From NCBI RefSeq assembly GCF_000626715.1, contig NZ_AQRA01000002.1, forward strand, positions 372,001 through 436,000: a stretch of 64,000 nucleotides of DNA. Direction: 5' to 3'. Shown here in pieces: positions 56,546 to 63,508 of this stretch. Numbering within the stretch: position 1 is the stretch's first letter; each line of letters begins with the position of its first letter. The DNA is from Aquimarina atlantica (GTDB lineage: Bacteria > Bacteroidota > Bacteroidia > Flavobacteriales > Flavobacteriaceae). The notes under the pieces were generated by a model. The model was not told the origin of the DNA and searched no databases. It saw only the letters and a list, made by a program, of their open reading frames with translations. A program made the translations under genes and the position numbers.

Positions 56546-57820
56546 TTAGGAGTTTTTTCTATATTCTTTTGGCGAAATACCGGTTAGTTTTTTAAATGCG
56601 CTATAAAAAGTAGATTTCGAATTAAACCCGGATTCTAAAGCGATCGATATAATAGTGTAGTTTATAAAATTAGGATTCCTTAATTTAAATTTTGCATCCT
56701 CTATTCTATATCTATTGATATAATCGGTAAAATTATGCCCGCTTAATTTATTAACCAATTGTGACAGGTAGTTACCACTTATATTTAATTTTTTGGCCAT
56801 ACTATCTAATCCCAAATTTGGGTCACGGTATATTTTGGCTTCTTTCATCAAAAAATCAAGTTCTTTAAAATACACATTATCATCTGTAATATGAGATTCA
56901 TTTTTTGTATGAATTTGTTTTAGTTTTTTTCCGGTTAGCCTGGCAATTAACTGAAATAAAAATATATGGTCTTTATTGAAAAAATCTTTTTGAGAATGCT
57001 CAGAATCCAGAACACCTACTACCTCATCATCTATTAAAATAGGAACAGACAATTCAGACATTCTACGATCGTCATCTATGATATATCTGTGGTCATTGGT
57101 CAAATCAGGCACATACTCAAATATTCCCGATTGGGCTACTCTCCCAACAATACCTTCACCTAACGAAATTTGAATAGGACTTATAACTTTTCTTTCTCCA
57201 TTATTTTTATGGCCAAATGCTGCTTTTTGTATCAAAACCTTATTTTGAGTATCCAACATATAGATTACACAGTCCTCTAGTTTAAGTTTCGAAATACAAT
57301 TCTCTACAATATCCCACAACACCTCTTCAAGTTTATTTTTTTCGAACAGCGATGATGCAAAATAGGTTAGTATTCCTATGGTTTCATTTGATGCATTTTG
57401 ATGTTGTACCTGGTCTTTTTCAGAAAAAATCTGATACAAGCTATCTGTGCTAAAATTTGATACTGAACTTCGCATCACATCTTTTTTAGTATTCACTTGA
57501 TCAAACTTTGGTGTTAATTGTTTTGTGGTGGTAAAAACACCATCATGTGCTACTTCAAATACTTTATTAAAAAGAAGAGGGATCTTAACATAAAAATTAG
57601 AGAAATTTTTCAGGACGATACTCGAAAAGAAAAAAGTAAATACCGTAATGAGCAATACCAGGTTTAATACTATCAGCATTGCAAACATGTGCCTTGTATT
57701 AAAACCTGTACTTAGCATCTTATAACACACAGTATATATCAAGAAAAATACAACTCCACATATTAAAATTGTAGAAATCTTCACTACTAGTTTATCACCT
57801 ATGTATTTCTTAATATTCAT
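56546..57820 (-). CDS. Membrane-anchored GAF-domain AraC-type regulator
   Basis: Read from ATG 57820 (MNIKKYIGDK), 424 residues; the TTG at 57847 is less likely. Two membrane helices (about 14-38 and 45-70) are followed by a GAF domain (about 150-310, with ILTYFASSLFEKNKLEEVLW and SVPILIDDEVVGVLDSEHS), then an AraC-type HTH pair: AKKLNISGNYLSQLVNKLSG and ALESGFNSKSTFYSAFKKLTG. It probably binds a small ligand through GAF. It is a paralogue of the truncated gene at 63602-64000, and like it lies directly in front of the 31-bp element; I infer that it binds that element. Confidence 0.88.
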   Translation of the reverse strand: MNIKKYIGDKLVVKISTILICGVVFFLIYTVCYKMLSTGFNTRHMFAMLIVLNLVLLITVFTFFFSSIVLKNFSNFYVKIPLLFNKVFEVAHDGVFTTTKQLTPKFDQVNTKKDVMRSSVSNFSTDSLYQIFSEKDQVQHQNASNETIGILTYFASSLFEKNKLEEVLWDIVENCISKLKLEDCVIYMLDTQNKVLIQKAAFGHKNNGERKVISPIQISLGEGIVGRVAQSGIFEYVPDLTNDHRYIIDDDRRMSELSVPILIDDEVVGVLDSEHSQKDFFNKDHIFLFQLIARLTGKKLKQIHTKNESHITDDNVYFKELDFLMKEAKIYRDPNLGLDSMAKKLNISGNYLSQLVNKLSGHNFTDYINRYRIEDAKFKLRNPNFINYTIISIALESGFNSKSTFYSAFKKLTGISPKEYRKNS

Positions 57821-57886
57821 GATGATTGATTTTTTTGTCCAATCCAAATATATAATGACAATACCCTTGAAAACAAGCGAAATATC

Positions 57887-57907
57887 TCGATATTCTGAGA
57901 ATTTCGA
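57887..57907. promoter_or_regulatory. Palindrome in the divergent gap between two AraC-type regulator genes
   Basis: Arms TCGATATTC and GAATTTCGA around TGA, one mismatch. Nearly the same palindrome recurs at 59757-59777. A second, perfect 14-bp palindrome ATCAATTAATTGAT follows at 57922-57935. Operator candidates for one or both regulator genes. Confidence 0.6.
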
Positions 57908-58072
57908 GATTGATTTTAAACATCAATTAATTGATTATCAATTATTTACAATGAACACACTCCAAGACATTACAAAAACAGAAAATAGTATCTTTATAGC
58001 TAGATAAATAGATCAAAAAAACCCTTGAAAGTAAAAAAAACATATCTCCTTTTCACTTCCTTTTACAAAAGG

Positions 58073-59752
58073 ATGATTATCGTTTTTTTGCTATGTTGTG
58101 TACAAATTACTACCGGACAGGAAGAAGATTTTATAATTCCTGATTCTTTAAAAGCTTTGGATTATGAGGATTTATATAATCATTATCTAAAAGCTTACAG
58201 AGATACTTTGTCTGCAAAGATTTACCTTAATACTTATCTAAAAAAAGCAATTCTAGAAAATGATAAGATAAAAATGGCTAATGCGTATAGTCGATTATCC
58301 TATTATATTGAAGAAGAATCAGAAAAAATAGCTTTATTAGATCGTTCTATTACTTTGAGTACAGGTTTAAATCAGAATATCATAATTAGATCATACTCTT
58401 TTAAAGGAGGGTATTATTTTCGTAAAGGTAATTACACTCTTGCACTTGACAATTACTTACAAGCTCTGATGCTTGCAGAACAGGTTCAAAATATTGAATA
58501 CATCTATATCACCAAGCATAATATTGCCTGTATCAAAACGGAAATAGGAAAGCATGAAGAAGCTCTACCTCTTTTTAAAGAATATTATACCTATATAACA
58601 ACAAAACATACTACCGATACAATCCGATATTTAAAAGCAACTGTTCCTTTAGCAGAATCTTATCGCTATAATAATCTCCTGGATTCTGCATCAATATATC
58701 ATCATAAAGCAATTAAACGATCACAAAAGTCAGAGCATTATTATAATAGGTTTTACAGCTTGATTATCATTAATGAAGGTATCAATCTCTTTTATAAAGA
58801 GAAATTTAAGGATGCTTATGATAGTATTGCTAAAGGTTTGCCTATTCTCGATAAAACCAGATCCGAAAACAAAAAAGCTTACATTTTGGGTGAGTTTTAT
58901 TTGGGAAAACTACAATTATTAAAACAAGATATCTTATCTGCCAAAAAACACTTTCTTACCGTAGATTCGATTCTTCAGTACGAAAAAATTACTCCTATTG
59001 AGATTCGGGAAGGTTATGAATTTATGATCAATTTTTATAAAGCGAATGATAAAAAGGAACAACAACTCGAATATATCAATAAACTACTGCGATTTGACAG
59101 TATTATTAACCAGGAAACCTCTTCTTTATCTAATCGTTTATTTAAAGAGTTCGATACTCCCTTACTATTAAAAGAAAAAGAAAACTTGATCAATGAACTA
59201 AAAGGCAATAATAAAAACCTAAACTCATTAGTGATTTTTCTCTCATTACTTACTCTTGTAGCTATTGTTTTTTTATATCGCCAATATCAAAAGAGAAAAA
59301 CCTATCAGCAAAAATTTGAGCAATTAATTGCTCAAAACAGAACGGTCGAAGCCCCTAAAGAAAAACTTCAAAGTGATATTGGGGTACCTAATGATATCGT
59401 TGAAGAAATCCTAAGTAAACTAGCTCTATTCGAGCAAAATCATCATTATCTAAAAAAAAATATTAGTACTACCTCTTTGGCCAAAGACATTAAAACCAAT
59501 ACAAAGTATTTGTCAAAGGTCATTAATCATCACAAGCAAAAGAATTTTGCCAATTATATCAACGATCTTAGGATTGCATATGCGGTGACCCAGTTAAAAG
59601 AAAACAAAACACTTAGGAACTATACCATACAAGGTATTGCAGAAGAAATGGGGTTTAATACTGCCGAGTCTTTTTCGTCTGCCTTTAAAAAGAGTACAGG
59701 GATCAAAACTTCTTATTTCATTAAGAAATTAGATGACTTAGATACTACGTAA
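58073..59752 (+). CDS. TPR-domain AraC-type regulator with single membrane helix
   Basis: About 559 residues from ATG 58073 (MIIVFLLCCVQITTGQEED), which gives a signal peptide; a TTG at 58025 is less likely. Residues about 60-345 are helical TPR-like repeats (SYSFKGGYYFRKGNYTLALDNYLQAL is one), residues about 385-405 a membrane helix (LVIFLSLLTLVAIVFLY), residues about 450-555 an AraC-type HTH pair (LAKDIKTNTKYLSKVINHHK and AEEMGFNTAESFSSAFKKSTG). The TPR part should face the periplasm and sense a ligand or partner. It is divergent from the GAF regulator and upstream of a peptide gene. Confidence 0.88.
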   Translation: MIIVFLLCCVQITTGQEEDFIIPDSLKALDYEDLYNHYLKAYRDTLSAKIYLNTYLKKAILENDKIKMANAYSRLSYYIEEESEKIALLDRSITLSTGLNQNIIIRSYSFKGGYYFRKGNYTLALDNYLQALMLAEQVQNIEYIYITKHNIACIKTEIGKHEEALPLFKEYYTYITTKHTTDTIRYLKATVPLAESYRYNNLLDSASIYHHKAIKRSQKSEHYYNRFYSLIIINEGINLFYKEKFKDAYDSIAKGLPILDKTRSENKKAYILGEFYLGKLQLLKQDILSAKKHFLTVDSILQYEKITPIEIREGYEFMINFYKANDKKEQQLEYINKLLRFDSIINQETSSLSNRLFKEFDTPLLLKEKENLINELKGNNKNLNSLVIFLSLLTLVAIVFLYRQYQKRKTYQQKFEQLIAQNRTVEAPKEKLQSDIGVPNDIVEEILSKLALFEQNHHYLKKNISTTSLAKDIKTNTKYLSKVINHHKQKNFANYINDLRIAYAVTQLKENKTLRNYTIQGIAEEMGFNTAESFSSAFKKSTGIKTSYFIKKLDDLDTT

Positions 59753-59756
59753 TTTA

Positions 59757-59777
59757 TCGAAATTCTGTGAATTTCGA
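59757..59777. promoter_or_regulatory. Perfect 9-bp-arm palindrome directly after the TPR-AraC gene
   Basis: Arms TCGAAATTC and GAATTTCGA around TGT, 4 bp after the regulator stop. It lies about 150 bp upstream of the putative promoter of the small peptide gene. Confidence 0.6.
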
Positions 59778-59986: not shown

Positions 59987-60163
59987 ATGAGAAAAGCAAA
60001 GGGGAAAAAATTAGGTCTTTCAAAATTAAAAATTACAAAACTAGAGAATCCATCATCTATAAAAGGTGGCCACGTAGATAGTAAAAATCCTTCTAGATGT
60101 CCTATATTCTATAAGCCAAAATTTACTATTATTACTTGTCCAACTAATTTTGGATGGGATTAA
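59987..60163 (+). CDS. Putative RiPP precursor peptide with double-glycine leader (class I lanthipeptide-like)
   Basis: A 58-residue peptide. Residues 1-28 form a basic leader with the spaced-leucine motif LGLSKLKITKL (9-19) and end in KGG, matching the double-glycine leaders of Bacteroidota natural-product precursors (TIGR04149-type, as in class I lanthipeptides). The 30-residue C-terminal core has two Cys, both before Pro (core positions 10 and 23), two Ser and three Thr in its second and first halves (TIITCPT is the densest stretch) and ends NFGWD. Own promoter-like sequence and a very strong terminator. No dehydratase, cyclase, radical-SAM or peptidase-exporter gene is in the window. Class assignment is inference from leader and composition. 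Confidence 0.65.
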   Translation: MRKAKGKKLGLSKLKITKLENPSSIKGGHVDSKNPSRCPIFYKPKFTIITCPTNFGWD

Positions 60164-60185: not shown

Positions 60186-60234
60186 AACCCCTCAAACTAT
60201 ACTAAGGGAAAATATAGTTTGAGGGGTTTTTGTT
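60186..60234 (+). terminator. Very strong terminator after the peptide gene
   Basis: AACCCCTCAAACTATA and TATAGTTTGAGGGGTT, 16-bp perfect arms with an 11-nt loop, then TTTTTG. It makes the peptide gene a monocistronic unit. Confidence 0.95.
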
Positions 60235-60391: not shown

Positions 60392-61252
60392 ATGAAAATC
60401 AAATCACTTTTTAGGAACAAGCCTGCAATCGTTCTAATTATGGGTTGCTTAGCATTTAATTCATGCTCAGAAGATGAAAGTCTCATGCAACAACCTATTC
60501 CTGACGCAACAGTAGAACAAGGAGTTTTGGAGCAAAAACATTTGGCAACAATAACATTGCCCGAACAAGTCACTATATCTTTTATAAAAGAAGAAGATGG
60601 GATCTCTTACCTTGCTCTTGGCAAAACCGATTCGTTCCAGGGATTAGGGCCTCTAAGCAATGCAAATGTTTTAGGAATATTCCTGGCGTTAACAGATAAT
60701 GATATCCCAGTACCAAAAGCTTTGTTGGATGCATCTAATGACCAGAAATCAAAATCCAATGCTAGTAAAAGAAGTATTGTAGATACACTACCAGATCCAG
60801 TTAAAGGAAAGTCCTTATATAAGGTTTTTGCTTCTTATAAAGCTATTTATGAGCCTCCATATTTTTGTCAAGAGCCTGATAATCCAGATGACTATATGAA
60901 AACTTATGATAATAATGGGATGTATTCCAGAGTATATAAGGCCTGGCCATCAGAATGGGGTTACAACAGTTTGTATTCTTCAGGTAAAAAGAATAGTAAC
61001 AAATGTAAAAAACTAGGGTTTAATATTACAAATTGCGAATTTGACGAAGACATTAAAATAGCGACTTATAAAATGAACATATGGGGTAATTATAAATGGG
61101 TATCTGATATAAAAATCCCGGCTAATTACTCGGCAGTCTGGGGAAAGGAATATGACAAATACGATAGAAGGGCAATGAAAGTAAAAGCTTTTAACTCAAA
61201 TACAGGTCATTTTACATATGGAGGTGTATTATATTTCAAAAACTATAAGTAA
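60392..61252 (+). CDS. Lipoprotein of a tandem family, member 1
   Basis: A 286-residue lipoprotein (lipobox LAFNSC). The N-terminal half shares a pattern with the genes at 61640 and 62646: a strand-rich segment, then LGIFLALTDNDIPVPKALLDAS (compare LDIYLALTSEKIPVPKVLVDMS). The C-terminal half has several Cys (YFCQEP, KCKKLGF, ITNCEF) and ends in NTGHFTYGGVLYFKNYK. No known domain. It faces the other two family genes and has the palindrome at 60305-60336 upstream and a terminator downstream. Confidence 0.75.
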   Translation: MKIKSLFRNKPAIVLIMGCLAFNSCSEDESLMQQPIPDATVEQGVLEQKHLATITLPEQVTISFIKEEDGISYLALGKTDSFQGLGPLSNANVLGIFLALTDNDIPVPKALLDASNDQKSKSNASKRSIVDTLPDPVKGKSLYKVFASYKAIYEPPYFCQEPDNPDDYMKTYDNNGMYSRVYKAWPSEWGYNSLYSSGKKNSNKCKKLGFNITNCEFDEDIKIATYKMNIWGNYKWVSDIKIPANYSAVWGKEYDKYDRRAMKVKAFNSNTGHFTYGGVLYFKNYK

Positions 61253-61354: not shown

Positions 61355-61531
61355 TTAAATCCAACAAGAAGGGCATTCTGGATCTTCTCCGCCTGCATCA
61401 TCACCCGGATCAGGTTGTATTTGCTGTATTTCATAAGTTTCATCCTGATCTGTTTCACAAGAAAAAGTAAAAACGGTTAATACCATAATCCCGATAAGGA
61501 TTAAAAAGGTTTTTAAACGATTTGTGATCAT
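61355..61531 (-). CDS. Very small lipoprotein with C-terminal CPSCWI
   Basis: A 58-residue frame: signal MITNRLKTFLILIG onward to the lipobox FTFSC (Cys 25), then an acidic tail (DPGDDAGGEDPE) that ends CPSCWI. The regular signal/lipobox and clean ends make it a real small gene, though no homologue is known to me. It lies in the same direction as, and about 110 bp downstream of, the tandem-family lipoprotein 2 gene and could be its co-transcribed partner. Confidence 0.65.
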   Translation of the reverse strand: MITNRLKTFLILIGIMVLTVFTFSCETDQDETYEIQQIQPDPGDDAGGEDPECPSCWI

Positions 61532-61639: not shown

Positions 61640-62434
61640 TTAGTTTCTAACATCTGTCCAACCACGCCAGTGAGCATACCAAACGGGTTCATGGACATCA
61701 TCACTATATCTCCATGATCCTCTTTTTCTTTTTGATGCTCCGATATAGGTAACTTTTTTTCCATACCCTCGTTTAACGGTATGAGTTGCCTTACCATTTT
61801 CTTTCCAAGATCCATTTGCTTTTCTATACTTAAATTTAACGGTCATATGAGGTACCGCAGTTCCACTATCCCAAAGAAGAATAGTATATCCTTCAATTTT
61901 TCTATATTTATTTCCAGATTTCCACTCATCTATAAGAGTTGAAGCATCTGGTACACAATAATCTGCACTCACACCATCACAAAAACCACGATTAGTCGGG
62001 TATTTTTGTAACAATACCTCAGGAATTCCTTCCATCTTTATAGTAACAGGAATATTCATAGTGGGTACTATCTGTCTTTTTTCTAATAATTTCTGATTTT
62101 GAAAAGATTTGGACATATCTACCAATACCTTAGGTACAGGAATTTTTTCTGAAGTAAGTGCCAGGTATATATCCAACATAGAATGCGTATCAAAATCAAT
62201 AAACATTTTGTTGTGTTCAGATCCTGATTCTATTGCAATGATAACAGGATCACCCTCTTCATCACTTTCGATAAGCTGTAATTTATTACCATTGGCAAAG
62301 GTAAAAACAGCAAATTCTCCATTATTAGTTTCCTCTAGGGTTGGCTGTACAGGTTCTGCTTCATGCTCACATGAGGTAGTAAAGAGTAAGACGTAGGTGA
62401 TGCATAAAATTTGTATGAACTTAATACGTTTCAT
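61640..62434 (-). CDS. Lipoprotein of a tandem family, member 2
   Basis: A 264-residue lipoprotein (lipobox LFTTSC). The N-terminal part LQLIESDEEGDPVIIAIESG, then FIDFDTHSMLDIYLALT, is shared almost word for word with member 3. The C-terminal part is basic and aromatic-rich, with TVKFKYRKANGSW and the closing WRGWTDVRN. Two or three Cys near FCDGVSADYC may pair. Function unknown; the sequence has no enzyme motif that I can see. The 31-bp element of P1-P5 was not found upstream. Confidence 0.75.
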   Translation of the reverse strand: MKRIKFIQILCITYVLLFTTSCEHEAEPVQPTLEETNNGEFAVFTFANGNKLQLIESDEEGDPVIIAIESGSEHNKMFIDFDTHSMLDIYLALTSEKIPVPKVLVDMSKSFQNQKLLEKRQIVPTMNIPVTIKMEGIPEVLLQKYPTNRGFCDGVSADYCVPDASTLIDEWKSGNKYRKIEGYTILLWDSGTAVPHMTVKFKYRKANGSWKENGKATHTVKRGYGKKVTYIGASKRKRGSWRYSDDVHEPVWYAHWRGWTDVRN

Positions 62435-62645: not shown

Positions 62646-63443
62646 TTAGTTCCGAAAATCCGTATATCCTTTCCAATACACATATTCTGTTCCGAGACCT
62701 GTTGTTGCATTAACCCCGCTACGTGCTGCTCTTCTGTATCTTTTCATTTTCCCTGGTATTGACAATCGTTTCCATTTTCCGGGATATACCTTGTATTTCC
62801 CTTTCACATGTGTCGCCCATCCTCCCGATGCCGTTTTATATCTATGTCTTACTTCCATATACTTCCCTTCATTATAGGATTCTTTAAAAACAGAGGTATA
62901 ATTTTTCATTATTTTACATCGACTACTCGATGTAATATTAGATACTTTGCTTTTTTTTCGGTTATAGCAATAATTATAACTATCGGGGATATCATCGCAA
63001 AAATCTGCTTTAGTATTGTTTTTTATTTTAAGCGTTTCAGGAATTTTTTTAACACTAAATTTTAGCGCAGCATCAAAATCCTTAACAACACTTCTATGAT
63101 GTAAATGGTCGTTGTCTTCAGAGATATCTGCAATTATTTTTGGTAGAGGAGAATCATCAGGAGTTAATTTAAGATATATGTCTAATATAGAATTAGAGTC
63201 AAAGTCTATCAATTCTATATTTTTATTTGAACCAGATTCGATCGCCAGAATAACCGGGTCTCCTTCTTCCTCACTTTCTATTAATTGTAACGTATTTCCA
63301 TTAGAGAATGTAAAGATCACCAATTCTTCATCCTTATTTTCCTGTAAGGTTTCATTATTAACGCTTTCGCAAGAGAATGTAGCAAACGCCAAAAGTGAAA
63401 TGTATTCGATTAGTGTAATTCTTGTAGGGATAAGATTTTTCAT
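62646..63443 (-). CDS. Lipoprotein of a tandem family, member 3
   Basis: A 265-residue protein from ATG 63443 (MKNLIPTRITL); the frame extends 13 codons further without a signal. Lipobox AFATFSC. Shared family core LQLIESEEEGDPVILAIESG and LIDFDSNSILDIYLKLT; closing YWKGYTDFRN parallels member 2. Cys at FCDDI, NYCYNRK and SRCKIMK. It has promoter P5 and a hairpin in its leader, and follows a truncated GAF-AraC gene, its probable regulator. Confidence 0.75.
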   Translation of the reverse strand: MKNLIPTRITLIEYISLLAFATFSCESVNNETLQENKDEELVIFTFSNGNTLQLIESEEEGDPVILAIESGSNKNIELIDFDSNSILDIYLKLTPDDSPLPKIIADISEDNDHLHHRSVVKDFDAALKFSVKKIPETLKIKNNTKADFCDDIPDSYNYCYNRKKSKVSNITSSSRCKIMKNYTSVFKESYNEGKYMEVRHRYKTASGGWATHVKGKYKVYPGKWKRLSIPGKMKRYRRAARSGVNATTGLGTEYVYWKGYTDFRN

Positions 63444-63470
63444 AGTATTAGGTTTTAAGATATTTAAAAA

Positions 63471-63508
63471 AGGTGAGTACATTTTAAGGGCTCAAAACCT
63501 ACTCACCT
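63471..63508. promoter_or_regulatory. Hairpin in the 5' leader of tandem-family lipoprotein 3
   Basis: Arms AGGTGAGTA (63471-63479) and TACTCACCT (63500-63508) around 20 nt; lies about 28 bp upstream of the start codon. It could affect translation or RNA stability. Confidence 0.6.

Follow-up and report, generated by a model that had tools for sequence, protein, structure and literature searches.

A Lanthipeptide-Type Precursor Gene Paired with a TPR-HTH_18 Regulator Gene in Aquimarina: A Candidate Peptide-Signalling Unit

The Precursor Gene and Its Surroundings

We analysed a window (the whole stretch of 64,000 nucleotides, C2:372001-436000) of the Aquimarina atlantica genome, which comprises 5.69 Mb in 39 contigs. 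The locus under study contains a short peptide gene, a regulator gene and two palindromes, and its features are as follows.

56546..57847, minus strand: divergent GAF-HTH_18 gene
57887..57907, no strand assigned: the palindrome of 59757..59777 with one mismatch, putative operator, in the region between the divergent GAF-HTH_18 gene and the regulator gene and thus upstream of both
58025..59752, plus strand: partner regulator gene, 575 residues from the listed TTG start (Pfam, structure model, paralogs)
59757..59777, no strand assigned: perfect palindrome TCGAAATTC-TGT-GAATTTCGA, putative operator, 4 bases past the regulator stop codon and upstream of the peptide gene
59987..60163, plus strand: precursor peptide gene, 58 codons (ORF translation, orthologs, pN/pS)
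59987..60070, plus strand: leader, 28 residues, with LxLxKx5L motif and terminal GG (translation, leader profile match, motif as in PMC7268733)
60071..60160, plus strand: core, 30 residues, with Cys at core positions 10 and 23 and five Ser/Thr (translation)
60186..60228, no strand assigned: terminator-like hairpin 3' of the peptide gene (folding against shuffles, consensus scan, kept in the ortholog alignment)

The translation of the peptide gene is MRKAKGKKLGLSKLKITKLENPSSIKGG (leader) followed by HVDSKNPSRCPIFYKPKFTIITCPTNFGWD (core), and the division into a GG leader and a core with two CP dipeptides agrees with the initial annotation. The leader has L9, L11, K13, L19 and GG at 27-28, a letter-for-letter fit to the LxLxKx5L...GG motif. 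In the excerpted text of Walker et al. (2020, PMC7268733), some Bacteroidetes class I LanA precursors carry LxLxKx5L in place of FxLD, with a terminal Gly-Gly in many of the leaders, and the cluster frequently includes a C39 protease.

Orthologs of the gene were found in six further genomes of the genus (74-98% identity, essentially full length), with the gene order kept over 20 kb in the five that were compared. The pN/pS values for the six close orthologs were 0.28 in the leader and 0.22 in the last 21 core residues. Because the ORF has orthologs, is under purifying selection and carries a published type of leader, it is, judged from sequence, a real gene, and its description as RiPP-precursor-like holds. 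At the same locus in six more distant species, there is a diverged precursor with a similar leader and often a PTII or TII tail at the C-terminus. The gene had been called unannotated, which is not true everywhere: a 91%-identical protein, the sole relative from a large protein search, is already deposited as "hypothetical protein [Aquimarina]". The curated models of Pfam and NCBIfam gave no match to the window precursor. This includes the NCBIfam model NF038153 (lant_leader_L1a), which 9 of 10 sister precursors of the genome do match, all of them under its cut-off.

The peptide gene had also been credited with a strong terminator of its own. The hairpin at 60186-60228 is indeed strong (−24 kcal/mol; mean of shuffled sequences −11.5, z = −4.9), but the consensus terminator scan lists it on the minus strand only. 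Since the plus-strand stem also runs into TTTTTG, the hairpin may be a terminator for both strands.

Behind it lie three related putative lipoprotein genes of 264-286 residues (60392-61252, plus strand; 61640-62434 and 62646-63482, both minus strand). They have no Pfam family above the cut-off, and their 14 homologs are all in the loci of close orthologs. A 58-residue putative lipoprotein with the C-terminal sequence DPECPSCWI and no Pfam match is encoded between them (61355-61531, minus strand). On the other side of the pair, a neighbour homologous to the divergent GAF-HTH_18 gene is present again at most of the compared loci.

The Partner Regulator and the Recurrence of the Gene Pair

The initial annotation placed the peptide gene inside a lipoprotein/regulator cluster. 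The gene does lie there, but not loosely: it forms a pair with the TPR-HTH_18 regulator gene just before it, a partner that had been overlooked. The regulator consists of an N-terminal hydrophobic helix, a TPR superhelix (Pfam TPR repeats, PF13424), a long helix with a hydrophobic stretch, and a C-terminal HTH_18 domain. We compared 12 loci of close and distant orthologs (L031-L035 and L049-L055, 18-20 kb each). In all 12, the peptide gene immediately follows, in the same orientation, a homologous gene encoding a regulator of 575-596 residues; at L014, a 13th locus, the region compared takes in no more of the regulator than its end.

The A. atlantica genome encodes 12 near-full-length paralogs of the regulator. 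Using a leader HMM built solely from 40 leaders of other genomes, we found that 9 of the 12 paralogs, and 0 of 18 HTH-only control loci, are immediately followed by a leader ORF in the same orientation (hand-computed probability about 1.5e-5). A profile search added a 13th, more distant homolog with no leader gene behind it, which makes 9/13 paired.

The pairing was also counted from the leader side, at 46 loci (40 chosen regions from the leader listing and six loci of other genera). The nearest upstream gene on the same strand was the regulator for 61 of the 68 leader ORFs; the automatic tally was 63/68, from which two ORFs at L163 were removed since their upstream gene encodes a TPR protein of 1124 residues that matches only in part. 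Counted by locus, the pairing was 40/46 (the exceptions being L143, L145, L155, L163, L164 and L180), and the leaders of other genera were all paired (6/6 from this side). From the regulator side, 30 matches had loci and 27 of these were near full length. All seven regulators from A. atlantica and G044 are followed by a leader gene. In leader-poor genomes, from which the other 20 come, the pairing is weaker, with only 9 of 20 so followed (weakest E counted, 0.015).

Several other arrangements were seen among these loci. In three genomes (L208, L209 and L215), a small protein of about 125 residues, similar in all three, is encoded downstream of a regulator that has no leader gene; it may be a partner of another kind. 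A group of leaders of the form KKLNLKKLEI.KL.GL.TIYGG does not stand behind the usual regulator (L143, 4998-5180; L163, 4243-4798; L164, 4461-4640; L180, 4620-4799). Tandem arrays of 3-4 different precursors per regulator (L144, L150, L160, L162, L167 and L177) have cores that differ except for a common STKT motif close to the C-terminus, perhaps a common recognition or processing site.

Palindromic Sites around the Regulator Gene

The palindrome at 59757-59777 is conserved in seven aligned close orthologs. Within the window, this site and the one at 57887-57907 are the only matches at up to three mismatches (0.03 expected). At up to one mismatch, the whole genome holds three sites: the two of the window and one upstream of a paralogous regulator on C8. 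At up to three mismatches, there are eight sites compared with five for the reversed control pattern, so that genome-wide only the near-perfect sites are meaningful.

We then considered the family, using 64 loci from which near-identical ones had been removed and expectations from dinucleotide shuffles. A perfect 9-bp inverted repeat was present between the regulator and peptide genes at 17/64 loci (0.5 expected) and upstream of the regulator at 11/58 (1.8 expected). The pattern TTC-N1-3-GAA was found in the intergenic region at 41/64 loci (8.7 expected) and upstream of the regulator at 27/64 (14.1 expected); behind the peptide gene it occurred at chance level (13/64, 13.3 expected). The two regions of one locus were more alike than those of different loci (mean score 23.68 vs. 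21.82, Wilcoxon p = 2e-7; 68 loci with close orthologs included, the own pair scoring above all 20 crosses in 10/68). At L223, from another genus, matching palindromes lie upstream of the lanthipeptide dehydratase gene (LanB) and between regulator and precursor.

Comparable palindromic sites are thus enriched in the family and not universal. Ten of the 12 paralog loci of A. atlantica were scanned (L093 and L095 were left out), and just two of them, the window locus and L094, have a clear site on each side. At L091 the upstream palindrome is present and its downstream counterpart is weaker, and at the other seven there is no palindrome or none that is convincing. The palindromes upstream of the LanB gene of this genome are imperfect. 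The association between operator type and HTH similarity is weak (partial correlation 0.112; 93/2000 permutations; 42 loci after thinning).

The simplest reading of this arrangement is that the paired regulator would bind both palindromes. Another protein could bind the upstream one, because it also lies upstream of the divergent GAF-HTH_18 gene, with which the regulator gene has this upstream region in common. We also considered the palindrome as a terminator of the regulator transcript, which we hold to be unlikely: no T-run follows, the site is found before the regulator gene as well, and a spacer is missing from several palindromes of the family.

Leader Copies and Maturation Enzymes

The initial annotation suggested that the peptide might be a solitary precursor served by enzymes elsewhere or by a novel route, and proposed a search for further leaders and for LanB, LanC and peptidase-exporter genes. 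The leader profile finds 12 such leaders in the A. atlantica genome and up to 23 matches per genome in the genus. The N-terminal LanB domain (Lant_dehydr_N, PF04738) occurs once, at C2:182869-184812, 247 kb from the peptide gene. LanB is split here, and a separate elimination domain (PF14028, 1.2e-68) adjoins it. These are joined by a TPR-HTH_18 regulator and a further precursor with such a leader, in the order LanB_N-LanB_C-regulator-precursor, and by a second regulator of this type, together with HlyD and a C39-peptidase ABC transporter in the opposite direction. LanC occurs twice (C1:864958 and C2:301516), and one of the two loci is shared with an exporter, HlyD, a regulator and precursors. 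Three C39 peptidase-exporter domains are encoded in the genome, none adjoining the window gene. The suggestion of a solitary precursor served from elsewhere is therefore supported by the genome, and a novel maturation route is not needed.

Measured against LanA precursors, the window gene has the leader motif, the GG end with a C39 exporter in the genome, and a core with Cys, Ser and Thr. It lacks LanB and LanC in one gene cluster with it, as well as a match to NF038153. The precursor at the LanB locus does lie in one cluster with LanB.

We searched 57 genomes of the genus for the leader and LanB. Among the 50 of good quality, 40 have both, eight have neither, one has LanB only (G042) and one has the leader only (G002); these counts are non-independent owing to shared ancestry. 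Of the nine LanB-negative genomes, G002 has one full-length regulator (paired), G054 has two (unpaired) and G043 has an HTH-only match, while the remaining six have no regulator at E up to 1e-30. At the family level, the leader was found at E up to 1e-5 in 7 of 149 genomes, A. atlantica included, so that related leaders do occur outside the genus. LanB is present in all six leader-positive genomes of other genera, compared with 2/16 leader-negative ones. In five of these six, LanB lies within 5 kb in the order LanB_N-LanB_C-regulator-precursor; in the sixth (G142), it is about 473 kb from the leader.

In four other genera (L219, L220, L221 and L222), the gene behind the LanB-operon precursor encodes a subtilase (PF00082), a candidate leader protease. 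A fifth such locus has a prolyl oligopeptidase gene in this position.

These results bear on two other readings of the peptide. It might be an unmodified GG-leader peptide, which a C39 exporter cuts and secretes and to which LanB is irrelevant. Across the family, cores are enriched in Cys (0.059 vs. 0.008) and in Ser + Thr (0.221 vs. 0.135), but Cys is absent from 16 of the 118 paired cores, which means that lanthionines cannot be universal among these precursors; in addition, G002 has a regulator-precursor pair without LanB. However, leader motif and LanB agree in 48 of the 50 good genomes, five other genera have LanB, regulator and precursor side by side, and the window core itself has two Cys and five Ser/Thr. 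We therefore consider an unmodified product improbable for the window gene.

The peptide could also be a radical-SAM or grasp-with-spasm RiPP. One sister precursor of the genome passes TIGR04149, the model of rSAM-modified RiPP leaders (27.2 bits, cut-off 25), and grasp-with-spasm genes adjoin both the regulator-precursor pair of G002 and the LanB locus of G150. The window precursor, however, matches neither TIGR04149 nor another such model, and the gene contiguous with the regulator in five genera is LanB, not a radical-SAM or grasp enzyme gene; we hold this assignment to be very improbable. Maturase genes of the grasp-with-spasm type (TIGR04192/TIGR04193) lie near the regulator-precursor pairs at L222 and L225. 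Of these maturases, the ATP-grasp protein at L222 and the SPASM protein at L225 score under the cut-off; L225 belongs to G002, the sole good genome with the leader and without LanB.

The window gene is hence a LanA-like precursor in an unusual, repeated arrangement, and neither an isolated oddity nor the sign of a new maturation route.

Signal or Effector

In the structure model, the predicted TPR domain of the regulator aligns with the peptide receptors Rap and NprR, and its fold matches non-pheromone TPR proteins equally well or better. We estimated receptor-core coevolution by a mirror-tree test on 55 regulators after thinning. TPR-core similarity beyond that of the HTH domain gave a partial rank correlation of 0.035, a value reached by 517 of 2000 permutations; the HTH-core value given the TPR domain was slightly higher (0.109, 19/2000 permutations). 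The test thus gives no support for receptor-core coevolution.

This result would suit a lanthipeptide effector, for example an antimicrobial, beside a regulator that reads another envelope or environmental cue and does not sense the peptide. Most known lanthipeptides are antimicrobial. The gene pair, the palindromes and the LanB association fit an effector equally or nearly as well, and where several different tandem precursors follow one regulator, a set of products fits as well as a signal. On the other hand, up to 23 leader matches per genome, with an own orphan precursor for each regulator and shared enzymes, look more like parallel receptor-signal pairs, and the scanned neighbours of the window gene include no recognisable immunity gene. 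We regard the effector as a possible but rather doubtful explanation.

The explanation that we prefer, with about even confidence, is that a lanthipeptide-type precursor matured in trans and its regulator form an autoregulated one-component peptide-signalling pair with shared maturation enzymes. It is based on the leader copies, the co-occurrence with LanB, the recurring gene pair, the gene order and the palindromes; from these we infer the modification, export, binding and signalling of the peptide. The precursor would likely be dehydrated and cyclised in trans by the single split LanB and LanC of the genome. A C39 transporter is predicted to cut it at GG and to export the peptide. The hydrophobic stretches of the regulator suggest that its TPR domain lies outside the cytoplasm, where this domain would bind the mature peptide and the regulator would read the signal. 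By binding the palindromes, the regulator would control its own gene and the peptide gene.

More tentatively, and with somewhat less than even confidence, this signalling pair may be one channel of many. Aquimarina and related flavobacteria would then have numerous orphan lanthipeptide-type pheromones. Each would have a membrane TPR-HTH_18 receptor and palindromic operators of its own, and a single shared LanB/LanC set would mature them all.

To our knowledge, peptide signalling in Bacteroidota has hardly been described. Cluster-based mining misses orphan RiPP precursors, as they have no enzyme nearby, and the regulator gene with its palindrome offers a way to locate them in other genomes. Should the peptides be signals, lanthipeptides as pheromones become directly testable, and one enzyme set could serve many private channels.

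Comparison with Known Systems

In nisin-type lantibiotics, autoinduction is carried out by a two-component system. The window system would likewise have a lanthipeptide that induces its own production; however, it would use a one-component membrane regulator and not a kinase with a response regulator, and its precursors lie outside the enzyme cluster.

With the Bacteroidota class I lanthipeptide precursors (Walker et al. 2020, PMC7268733; NF038153), the window gene shares the leader motif, the GG end and the Cys/Ser/Thr core, and its genome likewise encodes a split LanB, LanC and C39 exporters. It differs from those described in the excerpts of that paper in being an orphan far from LanB and outside the NF038153 model, and in being tied to a TPR-HTH_18 regulator gene with which it has a palindrome in common; transcriptional regulators receive only a general mention in these excerpts. 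TPR-encoding genes also lie near RiPP precursors in the Bacteroidales clusters BGC2 and BGC9 (PMC10352776). The nearest published remark that we found is the one on these genes. The same source notes that TPR domains regulate after pheromone binding elsewhere; its excerpts describe no TPR-HTH_18 pairing, shared operator or orphan expansion for these clusters. We found no earlier report of the regulator-precursor pairing in the open-licence PMC literature. Within this scope, what is new is the regulator-precursor unit with palindromes and its spread in orphan form, with maturation that would take place in trans.

Finally, the window pair resembles the RRNPP systems of Bacillota (Rap-Phr, NprR-NprX and Rgg-SHP) in that the gene of a TPR protein adjoins a small peptide gene and such pairs have expanded in parallel; the TPR superhelix is also similar in the predicted model. 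The output domain, however, is HTH_18 and not a phosphatase or of the XRE type, and the GG leader and lanthipeptide enzymes are found on the side of the window system. A hydrophobic N-terminus and a central transmembrane stretch place the TPR domain, by prediction, outside the cytoplasm, so that no importer would be needed. The multi-channel system, if real, would be the Gram-negative equivalent of Rap-Phr or Rgg-SHP, working with modified peptides.
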